This document shows, one piece after another, positions 1 to 6,270 of a stretch of DNA of 7,205 nt (its first letter is position 1; every line of letters begins with the position of its first letter). The notes beneath the pieces are model-generated. The model saw only the letters and a list, made by a program, of their open reading frames with translations. It searched no databases and was not told the DNA's origin. Made by a program: the position numbers and the translations under genes. The stretch is from Pseudonocardiaceae bacterium (GTDB lineage Bacteria; Actinomycetota; Actinomycetes; Mycobacteriales; Pseudonocardiaceae), in the NCBI GenBank assembly GCA_025937115.1, contig JAICSB010000159.1, positions 1 through 7,205 on the forward strand, given 5' to 3'.

Positions 1-1020
1 GCGGCGGGTACACCGCGTCGGGCCGAGCTCGTTGCGACGAGTGCACATATACGAGGGCGCTCTGCCCCGGGATCCGGACATGTGGGTGCCGCATTTCTTA
101 CACACCACCAAGGCGCGCAACACATAAAACCGCGACGACCGATACGCATGCGCCGACGCCCGGTAGGCAGACCGGTCCTGAACTTCTGCCCAGGTGCCCC
201 GGTCGATGATCGCTGGCCAGTCCCCCTCACCGAACTCTTCCCCTCGAAACACCCGAATTCCGGTCACATGCCGCGACCGCAACATCCGGCGCACCGACGC
301 CGGGTGCCACAGGCCCCCACCCGCCGCAGGCTCCCCGCGCTCATTCAACGCCTCAGCGATCTCACGCGGGGTGGCACCGTCGAGATACCGAGCGAACATC
401 TCCCGAAGGACCTGCGCCTCCGTCTCGATGACGGTTCGCGCGTCCGCGGCGTACCCATACGGGCGCCGCGCGCTGGTATGCGGGCGGCCGTCTCGCGCCC
501 GGTCCTCCAGCGCATCCCGCAACCGCCGCGACGTGTCATCTGAGGACCGGCACGCGTGCGCCACCTCGATCCGCAGGAAAAACCGATCATCCGGATCGGA
601 CAGATCTCGACGGTTCGCCTGCCCGTGCAACGTGATGTCATGTTCATCGGACAGGGTCAGGAGTTCTTCTAGATCCCGGGGTTGGCGCATCAAACGATCC
701 GGGTGATACACAATCACATGCCCCACCCCACCCGCCCGGATCACGGTCAGCAACGCATCCCACCCCGGACGACTCCGGCGCCGCTGCCACGCCGAACGAT
801 TGTTATCCACAAACACACACCCCGGCGCGATGACCAACCCCAGCCGGTCGGCCACCTGTCGGCACAACCGCTCCTGGCGATCCACTCCAGTCTGATCCTC
901 ATCCCGAGCACTCGACACCCGGCAGTAGATCGCCGCCGGTTGACCCACCCACCCCGACGCCCCATCAACCCGCCCACTCCGACGAGCTACACCTTGTCTG
1001 TGACGCTCCATACCATCCAT
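1..1020 (-). CDS. Large serine recombinase / phage-type integrase, C-terminus beyond the left edge
   Basis: This minus-strand frame is open from an ATG at 1020 to the window edge (340 codons, no stop), so the gene is partial at its 3' end. The resolvase domain (about residues 29-140) begins AIYCRVSSARDEDQTGVDRQ. The Ser in the RVS motif (about residue 36) is the expected nucleophile, and the domain continues with VIVYHPDRLMRQPRDLEEL. A recombinase domain follows, with the RRPYGY motif, ATPREIAEALNERG, SVRRMLRSRHVTGI and IIDRGTWAEVQ. A zinc ribbon comes last, with Cys at 307, 310, 326 and 337. This order is that of large serine integrases, which use a transient phosphoserine link to DNA to integrate or excise phages and integrative elements. 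The missing part should be the coiled-coil/C-terminal region. The start is uncertain: ATG 1020, ATG 1011 or GTG 948 are all possible and none has a clear Shine-Dalgarno. The gene reads away from a truncated DUF222 gene, as an integrase next to its att site would. Family call is strong; which element it belongs to is inferred. Confidence 0.93.
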   Translation of the reverse strand, partial: MDGMERHRQGVARRSGRVDGASGWVGQPAAIYCRVSSARDEDQTGVDRQERLCRQVADRLGLVIAPGCVFVDNNRSAWQRRRSRPGWDALLTVIRAGGVGHVIVYHPDRLMRQPRDLEELLTLSDEHDITLHGQANRRDLSDPDDRFFLRIEVAHACRSSDDTSRRLRDALEDRARDGRPHTSARRPYGYAADARTVIETEAQVLREMFARYLDGATPREIAEALNERGEPAAGGGLWHPASVRRMLRSRHVTGIRVFRGEEFGEGDWPAIIDRGTWAEVQDRSAYRASAHAYRSSRFYVLRALVVCKKCGTHMSGSRGRAPSYMCTRRNELGPTRCTRR

Positions 1021-1050
1021 GCGACGTAGTGTACGAACAACCAATGAGCT
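1020..1050. other. Probable attachment-site junction (attL/attR) of an integrated element
   Basis: DUF222 coding similarity ends at about 1040, and the serine recombinase starts at 1020 in another frame on the same strand. The junction must therefore lie in a few tens of bases. Serine integrase genes commonly lie next to their att site and read away from it, as seen here. A small inverted repeat, CGTA-GTG-TACG, sits at 1025-1035, but its role is unknown. The exact crossover dinucleotide cannot be placed without the other end of the element or an intact copy of the target gene. Confidence 0.45.
1028..1033 (-). promoter_or_regulatory. Candidate -10 element for the recombinase, leaderless arrangement
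   Basis: The minus strand reads TACACT at 1033-1028, which fits the TANNNT consensus of actinobacterial -10 elements. Seven bases separate it from the ATG at 1020, so transcription would begin at or next to the start codon. That would explain the missing Shine-Dalgarno. The hexamer 17 bases upstream (TCACCG) is a poor -35. Leaderless genes are common in actinobacteria, but this site is a prediction only. Confidence 0.35.
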
Positions 1051-1520
1051 CGGTGATCACCCGCACCTGCGCCGGCCCGATCTCCCCGGCGGCCAGCGCC
1101 GCAGCGGTGTTCGGCAGCAACGCCGGCAGGATCTCACCGCCCAACGCGCGACGCGGGGCGAGTTGGCCAGCGTGGGCGACTCGGGCGCCGGCCTCCACTG
1201 GTGACAGGTTCAACATCCCGGCCAGGAGTTGTTTGGTGTTGCGGAACCTGGCGGTTACCGCGACGTCGCGAGATTCCAGTTCCGCGACGGTATCCAGCAT
1301 CACCGAATACACCATCCGCCACACTGATTCAATATCGCGGACGTGCGCCGGCGTCATCGCACTTGACGATCGCATGACGCCACTGGTTGAGAGAAGCGAC
1401 CATCGCCTGCCTCGGATCCAGCTGGGTCTCTATCACGGCACCATTGTCGCACCCACCCCTGACAATCTCGGGACTCCAAAGAGCCATCGATGAAAGAAAG
1501 TCAGTGACGCGACGAGCGGT

Positions 1521-1534
1521 CGATTGAGCAATCG
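1521..1534. repeat. Short inverted repeat downstream of the LAL regulator gene
   Basis: CGATTG-AG-CAATCG is a perfect 6-bp inverted repeat with a 2-base centre, 24 bases beyond the regulator's stop codon. As RNA it could form a 5-bp stem with a 4-base loop. It has no T-run on the minus strand, so it is a weak terminator candidate at best. The remainder of 1376-1557 shows no gene I can support. Confidence 0.25.
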
Positions 1535-1557: not shown

Positions 1558-4323
1558 TCAGATGTCGTGTCGGCCGATCATCAGCTGGCGGCGGGAGTTG
1601 ATGCCGAGTTTGAGGTAGACCTGCACGAGGTGGTATTCGATGGTCTTGCTCGACAGGGATAGCTGGGCGGCGATGGCGTTGTTGGAGTGGCCCGCCGCGG
1701 CCAGCCGGGCGACGCGTTGCTCTTGGGCAGTCAACCGGGTGGGGTCTTCGCAGGTGCGGCCGCGACGGCCGCCGGCGACGGTGAGTTCGCCGTGGGCCTG
1801 GTCGGCTAGCCAGGTCGCCCCGCAGTACTCGGCGATCTTCAATGCTTGGGCCAGGTGGGGGCGGGCTCGCGCGCGTTGCCCGCGGCGGCGCAGGAATGAG
1901 CCGTAGCTCAGCAGCGTCTCGATGTGTTCCAGCGGCAGCTCGACCTGCTCATGCAGGGCCAGCCCGGCCAGGTGATGCTTCTCGGCGGTCTCGTGGTCGC
2001 CGTCGACCTCGGCCAGCATCGCTCGACCAGCGGCGGCGGCGATCCGGGGCCAGCGGCACGGCAGCCGCGCGGCACCGCGCTCCAACCAGTCGATCACCCG
2101 ACGGGCATCGGTCGGCCGCTCGCTGGCCAGGTAAGCAACCACGGCGTGGCGACCCCAGGGCACCGCGCACGGCTCGGCTATCCCCAGCCGGGTGGTCACC
2201 TGCTCGATCCGCGCGTACAGCTCACAAGCACCGGCCTGGTCCCCGGCATCGTGCAGGAGCTGGGCGCGCACGTGCCACAGATGCAACAGCGGATAGGACT
2301 GGCCTCGGGCTGTCGCGAGCTCCTCGGCGCGCTGACACAGATCCGCGCATTCGGTCAGCCGTCCGGTCAGCAGCAGGATCGGGGCGTGGCTGAAGCTGGC
2401 GAATCCTACGTGGTAGGGCATCAGCTCGGCCGATGCGGTGACTTGATCTGCTATGGCCTGGGCTTCCGACAACCGGCCCTGCCGGGTCGCGAACACCGCT
2501 TTGAGGCCTAGATACACGGCTGTAGCCCATGGGGCGCCGACCCGGTCGGCCGGGGCCAGGGCACGGGCCAGGAGGCGTTCGGCATCGGCGAAGCGCTCGG
2601 TGTGCAAGGCGGCGAGTGCTGGGAGACCCAGCGGTCCGAAGCCCCAGAGCAGATCGGTCAGCTCGGCCGATCCCGCCATCAGCTCCACAGCGGCGGCTTC
2701 GCAGGCTGCCACACCCGCAGGGTCCCCGCTCAGTATGGCAAGATACCCCCACGCTGCGGAGGCCTGGCAGCGTAGCGGCCCCGCGACGGTGCGGGTCAGC
2801 TCATAGGCCCGGGTCGCGAGCGGTAGCGAATGGGTCAGACCGACAGTTAAATAGGAGGTGACCGCGTCATCGAGCAGCACCTCGGCAACAGTGGTCTCGC
2901 TGCAGCAGGTTTCGGCCAGCGCGGCGGCTTCGGCGAACCGTTGGATGGCTTGCTCATGTGCGCCTGTGAAGAACAGTGCACGACCCAGCATCCGCAGGGT
3001 CCGCACCCGCTCATCGGGACCAAGATCGGTCCGGATACGTAGCCGCTCATACACCTGGATCGCCTTACCAGGCCGGCCGCTGACCTGGAGCGCTTCCCCC
3101 AGGGCAAACAGCAGCGCCGGGCTGGCCCGGTCTCCGGCCAGCCGGACCGCGGCACGCAAGTGTTCGACCGCGGTGCCCAGCGCCCCGGTCGCCAGCGCGG
3201 CCCGACCAGCCCGCTCAATCACCGTGATCGCAGCCGGGTCGCCAAGAAGCTCAGCCCGGATAGCATGCTCGGCGGCTTCGGCCTCCAACCCGTGCGCACA
3301 CAGCGCGCTGAAGGCCCGGGCGTGCTGCCGGACCCGCACCGGAGCCGCCAAGTCGTGGTACAGGCTCTGGCCGAACAGTGGATGCACAAATGCCGCGGTG
3401 GTCTCCGTCTCCGCGCGCACCAGCCCGCTACGGCACAGCGCCGACAGCGCCGCCTCGGCCTGCCGCTCATCCAGTCCGGCCACCTCCGTGGCCAGTGCCG
3501 GGCGAAACCTGGTACCCAGCACGCTGGCCGCCCGGGCCACTCGCAGCGCCTCCGGCGGCAGGCCCGCGAAGCGGGTCAACACGATCCCCTCCGCGCTGAC
3601 CGCTGCATCGGCCCCCATCAAGGCACAAGGCTGCGACCCGAGGGCGCTGGCAGACGCCGCGACCTGTTCCAACAGCAGCGGGTTGCCCGCACACAGCGCC
3701 GCCGCTCCTTCGGCCACGGTGTGGGTCACCGACCGACCCAGTCGGGTCGCCAGCACAACGGCCGAAGCCTCCGCGCTCAGCGGCGCCAACCGCTGCACTC
3801 TCGCATCACCGTCGTGGGCCAGGGCGCCGATCAGTTCATGCGCGGCCGGCGGCCATGGCCGCAACGTGCCCATCACCGCCACCGGCAATCCATCCAGTCG
3901 ACGGCACAGAAACGATAGCAAGGCCAGTGAGTCCGGATCGGCCCAATGCAGATCATCCAGGGCCAATAGCACCGGACCGGTGGTGTGCTCCAACCAACGC
4001 AGCACCGAATAGAAACGGGCCGCGCGCACTTCATTAGCCCCCGCGTCCCCCGGGGACCCGACTAGCTCGTGGTTGCCCACCGCACCCAGCGCCGCGGCCA
4101 GCACGCCGAATGGCAGCGAGGTTTCCATCATATCCCCGCGACCCAATCCCACCCGCACCGCAGGAGCCGCCAGCACCCTGGCCTGGGACAGGCTGGTCGT
4201 CTTACCCAGGCCGGCCTCCCCCACCACAAACAACGCCGCACCGCGCCCAGCCCGCGCTCCATCCAGAAGCCCGGTGATTGCGGCCAGGAGCGCCTCGCGC
4301 TCCAACGGCTGCCCACCATCCAC
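1558..4323 (-). CDS. LAL-type (MalT-like) LuxR-family transcriptional regulator with ATPase domain
   Basis: With the GTG at 4323 as start this is a 921-residue protein, a usual size for LAL regulators. An N-terminal AAA/STAND-type ATPase has Walker A GEAGLGKTT (35-43) and Walker B VLLALDD followed by LHWAD (118-129). The middle is a long alanine/leucine-rich helical array resembling TPR repeats, the usual ligand or partner surface. The C-terminus (864-912) is a LuxR/GerE HTH: LTAQEQRVARLAAAGHSNNA, then IAAQLSLSSKTIEYH and LGINSRRQL. Known relatives bind ATP and an effector, oligomerise and activate transcription; here neither effector nor targets can be seen. An upstream ATG at 4506 keeps the frame but would overlap the hemerythrin gene by 151 bases. 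GTG 4323 lies just before the conserved LEREALL segment, has a GGGGG tract about 10 bases upstream, and leaves a 32-base gap, so I prefer it. A rare TTA leucine codon lies at 2850-2848. The gene is probably co-transcribed with the hemerythrin gene. Confidence 0.92.
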   Translation of the reverse strand: MDGGQPLEREALLAAITGLLDGARAGRGAALFVVGEAGLGKTTSLSQARVLAAPAVRVGLGRGDMMETSLPFGVLAAALGAVGNHELVGSPGDAGANEVRAARFYSVLRWLEHTTGPVLLALDDLHWADPDSLALLSFLCRRLDGLPVAVMGTLRPWPPAAHELIGALAHDGDARVQRLAPLSAEASAVVLATRLGRSVTHTVAEGAAALCAGNPLLLEQVAASASALGSQPCALMGADAAVSAEGIVLTRFAGLPPEALRVARAASVLGTRFRPALATEVAGLDERQAEAALSALCRSGLVRAETETTAAFVHPLFGQSLYHDLAAPVRVRQHARAFSALCAHGLEAEAAEHAIRAELLGDPAAITVIERAGRAALATGALGTAVEHLRAAVRLAGDRASPALLFALGEALQVSGRPGKAIQVYERLRIRTDLGPDERVRTLRMLGRALFFTGAHEQAIQRFAEAAALAETCCSETTVAEVLLDDAVTSYLTVGLTHSLPLATRAYELTRTVAGPLRCQASAAWGYLAILSGDPAGVAACEAAAVELMAGSAELTDLLWGFGPLGLPALAALHTERFADAERLLARALAPADRVGAPWATAVYLGLKAVFATRQGRLSEAQAIADQVTASAELMPYHVGFASFSHAPILLLTGRLTECADLCQRAEELATARGQSYPLLHLWHVRAQLLHDAGDQAGACELYARIEQVTTRLGIAEPCAVPWGRHAVVAYLASERPTDARRVIDWLERGAARLPCRWPRIAAAAGRAMLAEVDGDHETAEKHHLAGLALHEQVELPLEHIETLLSYGSFLRRRGQRARARPHLAQALKIAEYCGATWLADQAHGELTVAGGRRGRTCEDPTRLTAQEQRVARLAAAGHSNNAIAAQLSLSSKTIEYHLVQVYLKLGINSRRQLMIGRHDI

Positions 4324-4355
4324 TGTGGCCGCACCCCCGCCGATCGTGCCCCCGC

Positions 4356-5012
4356 CTAGCGCGACGTCGGCGACTGCCCATGTCCCAGAGCTTCTTTGAC
4401 AGGCTGGGGATAGAGTCGGCGACGGCGTTTGGCATAGGCCGGGATCCAGAAGACCTGGGCCAGGATGCGCACCAGTCGCGGCAGCATCTGGCGCACCGGC
4501 GGCCACTCTTGGGAGGTAGCTTCGCTAGACACCCAGCCCAGCACGATCGGCATGTACCGGCGAGGGATCGACGCGAGCGCCCGCTCGCCGAACGCGTCCC
4601 ACTCCTCGGCGCTGATGTGTGCGCTGCTCAGCGGCAGGATTACCCGTTCCTCTTCGTCGAAGTGAGCGTTGATCGCCTCCTGTAGCTCGGCGAGGACGGT
4701 CGCGCGCATCGGCAGCGGTCGCGAGGTGTCCCCGGCCGTGGCGATCAGCGGGTCGAGCTGCGTGTGCTGGGTCTCTAGCCGATCTAGCGCGGGCGTGGCC
4801 GCTGGCGCTCGGTTCCGCAGGGTGGGCCACAGCCAACGATCTTCCTCGGCGTGGTGGTGGTGCAGCACGCTCAGCGTGACCGCGATCTGCTCCTCGATCA
4901 GCGCCTGGTGTCCGACGTCCCGGGAGTGACAGGCGGCTTCAGCGAGCCGGCCGTATTCCTGGCGCATGCACTTGTGGGCGAGTAGGAAACCGGTGAAATC
5001 GATCTCAGTCAT
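4356..5012 (-). CDS. Hemerythrin / HHE cation-binding domain protein
   Basis: This 218-residue protein has the histidine and acid spacing of the HHE four-helix bundle. His13 lies in FLLAHKCMRQEY, a histidine cluster 51-54 with Glu57/58 in LHHHHAEED, His83 in LETQHTQLD, and His117 with Glu121 in INAHFDEEERVILP. These are the likely ligands of a di-iron centre that binds O2 or reacts with NO or peroxide in the family. No signal peptide or membrane segment is evident, so it should be cytoplasmic. A C-terminal extension of about 70 residues (VFWIPAYAKRRRRLYP and following) is usual for actinobacterial HHE proteins. ATG 5012 has AGG six bases upstream, and that site lies inside a palindrome. The LAL regulator starts 32 bases after the stop, suggesting one transcript and perhaps a sensor-regulator pairing. 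The domain call is strong; the ligand is unknown. Confidence 0.93.
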   Translation of the reverse strand: MTEIDFTGFLLAHKCMRQEYGRLAEAACHSRDVGHQALIEEQIAVTLSVLHHHHAEEDRWLWPTLRNRAPAATPALDRLETQHTQLDPLIATAGDTSRPLPMRATVLAELQEAINAHFDEEERVILPLSSAHISAEEWDAFGERALASIPRRYMPIVLGWVSSEATSQEWPPVRQMLPRLVRILAQVFWIPAYAKRRRRLYPQPVKEALGHGQSPTSR

Positions 5013-5013
5013 G

Positions 5014-5023
5014 ATAGGCCTAT
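5014..5023. promoter_or_regulatory. Palindrome ATAGGCCTAT overlapping the hemerythrin ribosome-binding site
   Basis: This perfect 10-bp palindrome contains the AGG likely used as Shine-Dalgarno and ends one base before the hemerythrin ATG. Its place would suit an operator that blocks expression. It is short and could be chance. Confidence 0.3.
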
Positions 5024-5096
5024 TCGTTCGGTGTCAGATCTCGCGCACGTTCTGCGGCTCGTTACGCAAATACTGCGGGCGCCGGCGAAGGAGGTC

Positions 5097-5116
5097 TATC
5101 CCGTCTGGGGGGGATA
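5097..5116. promoter_or_regulatory. Dyad TATCCC-N8-GGGATA, candidate operator between divergent genes
   Basis: Two perfect 6-bp arms (5097-5102 and 5111-5116) flank an 8-base spacer, 20 bp in all, in the 160-base region between the divergent hemerythrin and GAF-LuxR genes. LuxR-type HTH dimers bind dyads of about this size. A second, longer-range pair, CCCGTC (5100-5105) and GACGGG (5131-5136), overlaps it. Which regulator, if any, binds here is unknown. Confidence 0.4.
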
Positions 5117-5136
5117 CCGTCGTCGCTGCTGACGGG

Positions 5137-5142
5137 TAGAGT
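5137..5142 (+). promoter_or_regulatory. Candidate -10 element for the GAF-LuxR gene
   Basis: TAGAGT fits TANNNT and lies 30 bases before the ATG at 5173. The dyad ends 20 bases upstream of it, so a bound protein would overlap the -35 zone. No good -35 hexamer is seen; GATACC at 5113-5118 is the closest by spacing. Weak prediction. Confidence 0.25.
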
Positions 5143-5172
5143 TGTGGCCAGGACAAACGGGGGAACCTGACC

Positions 5173-6270
5173 ATGCACAGCACTGCAGCGACCCGTACCC
5201 AGGAGCTGATGCTGAGGCTGTCACAGACCCGCCGCCGCGACACGCTCACCTTGCGCCAGGAGTTGATTTCGCTGCTGCGCCGGGCGCTGCCATTCGATTC
5301 CTGGTGTTGGGCGTTGGCCGATCCGGATAGCCAGCTGGTGTCGTCCGGGACCGGCGACAGCCCAGCCGCCGCCGATATAGGACGCTTCCTGGCCTTGGAA
5401 TACGGCGGCGTCGACCTGGACCGGCTACTCACGTTGGCCGACGGTGCTGGTCCGGCCATCGGGGTGCTCAGCCAGACGACCGCCGGTGACCTGCGCCGCA
5501 GCACCCGCTGGCGAGAGCTGTATCACCCTCACGGCATCGGCGACGAGCTGCGTCTTGCGCTGTTCGCCGACGGATACTGCTGGGGTTACCTGGAGCTGCT
5601 CCGCGACCGCACCGGTGGACACTTCACCACCGAGGAAGCCGAGTTCCTGCTCCGGCTAGCTGTGCCCATGGCCAAAGCCCTGCGGGCCGCGCTGACCTGC
5701 GTCAGCGCACCGACGACCGAGGTGCCGCCCGGCCCCGGCATCCTGATCCTCGATGCCCACAATGCAATCCAAGCCACCACCGCGGAGGCGGACCAGTGGC
5801 TGGCCCTGCTCCGTTCCTACGCCATCCCCGCCGAGGCGCTCTTCCCCGCCCCGACGCCGGTCCTTTCGGTGGCCGCCCGTTTGCGTTCCCTGCCCAGACA
5901 TTCCGGCGCAACCCCCACCGCTGCGCCGGCTGCCGCCAGAGTGCGGACCCGCACGCCGGTCGGCCACTGGCTGACCATCCACGCCTCCCACCTCACCGGG
6001 ATGACCGTCCCGCCGGGCACCGTCGCGGTCACCATCCAGCGCGCCCCACCCGCCGATGTCGCCGCCCTGGTCTTCCACGCCCACGGGCTCACTGTTCGGG
6101 AACGCCAGCTAGCGCGGCTGCTCCTCGACGGCCTGCCCAACACCGAAATCGCCCAACAACTGCACATCTCGATCTACACCGTCCGAGACCATGTCAAAGC
6201 GGTACTCGACAAACTCGGCGTACACAGCAAACGCGAACTCATCGCCAGCATTCTGAGCCAGCGTCTGTAA
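5173..6270 (+). CDS. LuxR-family transcriptional regulator with GAF-like and PAS-like sensor region
   Basis: The 365-residue product starts at ATG 5173, preceded by GGGGGA eight bases upstream; an in-frame TAG at 5137 excludes a much longer form. Residues about 34-172 resemble the GAF domain of actinobacterial LuxR regulators (RRALPFDSWCWALADPDS, YHPHGIGDELRLAL, GYLELLRD). Residues about 187-295 look PAS-like (ILILDAHNAIQATTAEADQW, VGHWLTIHASHL, VAVTIQRA). The LuxR/GerE HTH occupies 306-365: LTVRERQLARLLLDGLPNTE, then IAQQLHISIYTVRDHVKAVL and LGVHSKREL. It has no phosphoacceptor receiver domain, so a small molecule or partner protein is the likelier signal. It is divergent from the hemerythrin-LAL operon across a shared 160-base region, which makes it a candidate regulator of that operon and of itself. 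That role is inferred; the architecture is clear. Confidence 0.92.
   Translation: MHSTAATRTQELMLRLSQTRRRDTLTLRQELISLLRRALPFDSWCWALADPDSQLVSSGTGDSPAAADIGRFLALEYGGVDLDRLLTLADGAGPAIGVLSQTTAGDLRRSTRWRELYHPHGIGDELRLALFADGYCWGYLELLRDRTGGHFTTEEAEFLLRLAVPMAKALRAALTCVSAPTTEVPPGPGILILDAHNAIQATTAEADQWLALLRSYAIPAEALFPAPTPVLSVAARLRSLPRHSGATPTAAPAAARVRTRTPVGHWLTIHASHLTGMTVPPGTVAVTIQRAPPADVAALVFHAHGLTVRERQLARLLLDGLPNTEIAQQLHISIYTVRDHVKAVLDKLGVHSKRELIASILSQRL

Follow-up and report, generated by a model that had tools for sequence, protein, structure and literature searches.

The window analysed here, a stretch of 7,205 nucleotides from a Pseudonocardiaceae bacterium, very probably (we estimate a probability of about 0.93) carries the left junction (attL) of a mobile element that has been integrated by a serine integrase into a multi-copy DUF222 gene. 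The features on which this reading rests are listed in Table 1. Genomes (G), contigs (C) and loci (L) are referred to by our own handles.

Table 1 Features of the window, with coordinates, strand and the basis of each assignment
Feature	Position	Strand	Basis and remarks
Large serine integrase, N-terminal 340 residues	1-1020	(-)	Pfam domains, likeness to P0002, aligned start; remainder off the left edge
Element-side arm (P') of attL, integrase ATG to core	1021-1048	(-)	Near-identical in six DUF222-linked left junctions
Core ACCGAG	1049-1054	(-)	BLAST ends at reference 517 (left), 512 (right)
5' remnant of DUF222 (13E12-type) gene	1049-1436	(-)	Pfam, alignment to uninterrupted copies
Leader common to dispersed DUF222 copies	1437-1523	(-)	Likeness ends at about 1523
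AAA/TPR/LuxR regulator, host flank gene outside the element	1558-4506	(-)	Pfam

The window integrase has the domain set of the large serine integrases. The minus-strand open reading frame 1-1044 matches the Pfam families Resolvase (1.3e-21) and Recombinase (3.8e-17), and also part of the zinc ribbon (1.4e-4, below the Pfam cut-off; the window protein is truncated). In the full-length relative P0002, to which the window integrase is 94% identical, all three domains score above their cut-offs. The three nearest database proteins are 467, 467 and 493 residues long, with 94% identity to the 467-residue ones. The motifs YCRxS and PDRLMRQP, which we take to be the catalytic motifs of serine integrases, are conserved in the alignment. 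In an alignment with 34 relatives, several of these begin at the position of the ATG at 1018-1020, which makes it a likelier start than the TTG at 1044; this ATG sits 28 bases from the DUF222 break. A search of solved structures with P0002 returned nothing at 1e-3, and an integrase match at 1e-100 is present in six of 390 genomes (family of G004).

The DUF222 remnant is recognised by Pfam in the reading frame 965-1375 (1.7e-11, profile positions 3-89 of 306) and extends back to a GTG at 1434-1436. Two parts of one alignment lie in different frames, which indicates a frameshift near 1350. In an uninterrupted DUF222 copy of 425 residues (L087; DUF222 4.9e-48, profile 6-306) the core falls at codons 131-132. 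At a Pfam E value of 0.01 L087 contains DUF222 alone; an HNH-like C-terminus was seen by eye and has no Pfam support. The initial annotation had placed a serine recombinase at the break of a DUF222 gene on the same strand. Pfam confirms this, and the break is now refined to the core given in Table 1.

A scan of genome contigs with the integrase retained 80 loci of 95 relatives. The nearest are L001, L002, L003 and L005, which come from Pseudonocardiales bins, together with L004. L001 and L003 lie in genome G001, L002 in G002, L004 in G003 and L005 in G004. These four genomes belong to one genus, of which 11 genomes were examined. Window bases 1 to 1472-1522 align to L001, L002, L003 and L005 at 83-89% identity, and the likeness goes no further than the DUF222 unit.

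With one uninterrupted DUF222 unit of G550 as the reference, the DUF222 copies at six left junctions (the window, G001:C278, G001:C412, G002:C117, G004:C48 and G549:C79) all stop at reference base 517, and those at four right junctions, which begin the 3' part of the gene at the break, all start at base 512. Since the same base is found in all junctions, the break is beyond chance. The five left junctions besides the window come from four genomes of one Pseudonocardiaceae genus, and the right junctions from three of these. The six-base overlap is ACCGAG in the G550 unit. The right junctions read ACTGAG and the left junction L001 reads AGCGAG, which reduces the common part to GAG (1049-1051 in the window), found in every left and right junction seen; AC[C/T]GAG is common to the right junctions and most left ends. 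A passage in PMC9262239 describes serine-integrase cores of down to 3 bp. The sister loci thus have an attL and an attR with a short common core, and a target gene that is split precisely. A pattern made from the left arm, allowing up to three mismatches, occurs in six of 390 genomes, and its five junctions lie in G001 (two), G002, G004 and G549. Two matches with three mismatches (G560 and G686) are strays rather than junctions, and the reversed control pattern gave one match in the 390 genomes, in G458. The right-arm pattern occurs at four places in three of the 11 genomes of the genus, and its control at none.

It was proposed from the start that multiple DUF222 genes could offer several landing sites, and the genomes agree with this. 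DUF222 matches number 4 to 26 per genome in ten of the 11 genomes (some being pieces of one gene), so that several landing sites exist. Seventeen of 52 scripted DUF222 loci, representing 16 distinct places, align uninterrupted through the site, where they read ACCGAG (10), GCCGAG (4) or ACCGAA (2); GAG is therefore missing in two of the 16. A comparison with intact DUF222 genes of the same genome had been suggested, and copies uninterrupted through the site are present in the sister genomes G001 and G004 themselves.

The likeness between the window and four sister loci spans the integrase and the DUF222 fragment together and then stops. This is what would be expected if the two formed a single inherited or co-mobile cassette derived from one old insertion, with no fresh use of the target. 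We consider such a cassette improbable. The likeness stops at an edge that is common to dispersed DUF222 copies, the right ends supply the missing part of the gene, beginning at the matching base, and the remnants do not form one clade. In a tree built from about 420 bases of N-half sequence in 21 DUF222 copies, the label 'interrupted' needs five changes, well-supported branches force at least two origins, and a single origin of the interrupted copies appears in 0% of 200 bootstrap trees. Shuffled labels did as well in 248 of 500 cases, indicating that interrupted copies are not clustered. Support within the tree is partial: 4 of the 18 inner branches are well supported, which leaves the number of insertion events not fixed. 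Judged from these sequences, the six 5' remnants are likely to go back to several separate insertions into different DUF222 copies.

The genes flanking the G004 insertion are neighbours in G550, with 3 bases between the matched blocks as against 14,539 in G004. G550 has no DUF222 copy there either, so what was inserted is DUF222 plus element, and the G550 site is not an unoccupied attB. For the DUF222 copy of the window, no unoccupied orthologue was found in G004, G549 or G550. The best orthologues of the flanking regulator are 92% (G004), 87% (G549) and 82% (G550) identical, and from the 92% orthologue in G004 the window would appear to belong to the genus of G001-G004. In G550 the order is regulator, second gene, DUF222, large gene; in G004 it is regulator, second gene, PKS gene; and in G549 the regulator is followed by a PKS-like gene. 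No DUF222 was seen after the regulator orthologue in G004 or G549. The PKS domains are confirmed by Pfam in G004 only, and the second gene has no Pfam match.

It is worth adding that in G004 the orthologue of the LuxR regulator is two genes from the PKS gene (window 1558-6270; L200:9702-14999 (+)), and given this proximity a biosynthetic cluster may adjoin the window. In the vicinity of the PKS gene a ligase was labelled by eye, and it has no Pfam support at 0.01.

The initial annotation predicted a 3' part of the DUF222 gene in the same orientation, some kilobases away, and a short core identifiable from the flanks. Both were found in the sister loci, the core as the GAG of all junctions and the 3' part 12.9 kb away on G004:C48. 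The two DUF222 halves lie there on the same strand, the N-half at 61638-61925 (profile 5-89), adjoined by the integrase, and the C-half at 48126-48719 (profile 89-289), and the cores are 12,922 bases apart. This locus also bears on the suggestion that metagenome contigs have simply been misbroken or misjoined at repeated integrase and DUF222 sequences. The sister loci do include metagenome bins, and the contigs G001:C412, G549:C79 and G549:C54 stop within the junction region or shortly after it. However, both ends of the G004:C48 element are inside a contig of 402,709 bases, the same base recurs at all ten junctions, six left and four right, in the window and four genomes, and a comparable case in the named strain of Actinocrispum wychmicini (below) is inside a contig of 474,247 bases. 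The chance that the junctions are artefacts of assembly is thus very slight.

The integrase of G004:C48 is frameshifted, with one frame of 418 and one of 104 residues, so that this copy may be inactive. The Pfam-identified cargo comprises two regulators (HTH/DUF5753 and GntR/PBP-like), an MFS transporter, and transposase pieces of the DUF4158 and IstB kinds, one of each; five reading frames have no Pfam match. None of the ten cargo reading frames picked from this element, all ten of which were compared with Pfam, is a phage gene. The right end on G004:C31 has three DUF5753 genes, a DUF397 gene and a transposase upstream. In a limited Pfam scan, no phage structural, replication or conjugation genes were recognised in the cargo. 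An inverted repeat was looked for at the insertion edges of G004:C48 and was not found. The sequence TGATCACCGAG, which lies about 130 bp inward from this element's right end, was first read as the core and is interior sequence.

At the right end, a reading frame coming from the element enters the 3' part of DUF222 in frame (GHLVVHERRLTE...; L111:2375-3274 (-) and L116:4798-5163 (+)), and such an in-frame fusion might allow a shortened DUF222 protein to be made after integration. In G002 a weak PemK-like match (4.5e-4, under the cut-off) lies beside the interrupted DUF222 (L120:9331-9630 (+)), with a small reading frame before it.

We searched 109 loci for DUF222 with a local profile and tblastn: the 80 scan loci, 28 from genome searches and the window. 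DUF222 pieces were found in the window, at L001, L002, L003, L005 and L006, and at loci that correspond to the same places. Neither L007, which starts near a contig end, nor a G546 copy without the N-terminal part allowed a judgement. L006 is the element of A. wychmicini (NZ_SLWS01000010.1), whose integrase is 61% identical to that of the window and which also splits a DUF222 gene, but at another position and in the opposite orientation. In L006 the DUF222 gene, on the opposite strand, halts 5.2 kb off and restarts beside the integrase, giving an element of about 5.2 kb. When its halves are compared with six paralogues, they share 2-4 bases against four of these and stand 2 bases apart against the other two. 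Its cargo consists of a NUDIX gene plus one whose match to HTH is weak. The sequence CGCTTGAC occurs in the P arm of each of the two elements that split DUF222, equally far from the junction.

The P' arms look alike by eye at four sites, these being the window-type junctions and three relatives elsewhere. Two relatives have a similar P' arm and no DUF222 adjoining: G003:C56, with an integrase 75% identical, and G004:C25, with a frameshifted integrase 71% and 84% identical in two pieces. A transporter beside the former integrase was labelled by eye and has no Pfam support at 0.01; a transposase beside the latter (L144:11753-12049 (+)) is likewise a by-eye label, with no Pfam match. If the G004:C25 neighbour were truly a transposase, the clade might favour multi-copy genes in general. 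These two relatives, at 71-84%, are what could be cited for the view that the enzyme is a transposase-like serine recombinase of low target specificity, which met DUF222 by chance, an idea scarcely credible against six DUF222-linked left junctions that all lie at one base. Taken together, the relatives indicate a clade that switches between targets and has two insertion positions in DUF222.

On the basis of these observations, we return to integration by a serine integrase into a multi-copy DUF222 gene, and consider it most likely to proceed as follows. Fixed breakpoints, both gene halves on one contig, a short common core and uninterrupted paralogue sites are all present in the sister loci. 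The integrase gene would adjoin attP, its start codon lying 28 bp away from the core, and recombination of attP with attB would take place in the N-terminal part of DUF222, at the VRVI-TE codons (131-132 of 425). By analogy with other enzymes of this type, the integrase would make a double-strand cut, rotate and religate the ends, with a 2-bp overlap inside GAG. The product would have the first 130 or so DUF222 codons beside the integrase and the remainder at a far attR; the attR, right end and cargo belonging to the window's own element should all lie beyond the window. Each integration would remove one of several DUF222 copies. Excision would be expected to need a directionality factor (none was identified). 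Dyad symmetry in attP is not significant, with 13 of 26 pairs matching and 126 of 2000 shuffles as good.

The DUF222 units themselves merit some description. Related genomes differ in whether a unit lies between the same neighbours (L199:4897-6590 versus L200:9352-9657; L111:2185-16723 versus L227), and the ends that copies have in common are about 1.37 kb apart. In A. wychmicini, long inverted repeats (116-360 bp, 82-99.7% alike) bracket 12 of the 19 DUF222 loci L205-L223 (L206-L208, L211-L214, L217-L220 and L222), as though the gene formed a unit resembling a transposon, and no target duplication was seen by eye at the examined ends of these units. In the genus of G001 such a bracket is found in L183 only, among 51 loci, many of them fragments. 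L094 and L096 (G004:C48:187209-187830 and G004:C2:9530-10151) lie at two places of one genome; both show an internal gap at profile positions of about 145-250, and their scores are equal.

The integrase resembles the large serine integrases of actinobacteriophages, P0002 matching PHROG 95 at 2e-84. Identity to actinobacteriophage integrases is 31-35% among the matches listed (20 of 331 records), and it reaches 60% with none of the 331. The DUF222 protein has one weak match in the phage collection, and scans of viral contigs with the integrase alignment and with the DUF222 protein found no relative. Matches to plasmid DNA are 60-80% identical (13 records). A Microbacterium plasmid match that starts near the split site is annotated as a 13E12 repeat gene beside rpe and his genes, with no integrase in an incomplete gene table.

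The closest parallel is phiRv1, on which the initial annotation modelled the arrangement. The window element is like phiRv1 in having a serine recombinase (Rv1586c in phiRv1) and a 13E12/DUF222 target; it differs in its host and, as far as the one complete sister element goes, in its cargo, no phage genes having been seen there. 'PhiRv1-like' holds for the choice of target gene. Passages in the literature describe phiRv1 of M. tuberculosis as a serine-recombinase element that sits in the multi-copy REP13E12 (PMC9317374), count it with PICI-like elements (PMC10654092), report that prophages have inserted repeatedly into rep13e12 of M. tuberculosis (PMC12803068), and describe the 13E12 repeats as containing a putative prophage attachment site and having no defined function (PMC13061034). 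The titles, opening lines of abstracts and selected passages of the papers searched mention no other integrase using REP13E12/DUF222 genes. Searches for literature linking 13E12 to a serine integrase or prophage integrase, or Rv1587c/Rv1588c to phiRv1, found none.

Insertion into 13E12 by the tuberculosis prophage is therefore known, and what is added here is a clade of integrases, found in other genera, with two different insertion positions in the DUF222 family. The suggestion that 13E12 genes are more widely used as attB is supported by the sister loci and by the second target in A. wychmicini, and DUF222/13E12 repeats thus serve as landing sites beyond the tuberculosis case. Genes that are repeated and dispensable would thus seem to be preferred as targets. 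A broader view, to which we would give slightly less than even odds, is that DUF222 genes are dispersed movable units adopted repeatedly, at differing positions, by more than one serine-integrase lineage as multi-copy harmless landing pads that spread with the host repeats. The deduced attP/attB pairs are available for testing, and provide a handle on the DUF222 genes, whose function is undefined. As in phiRv1-like elements, the attB lies inside a 13E12/DUF222 gene.
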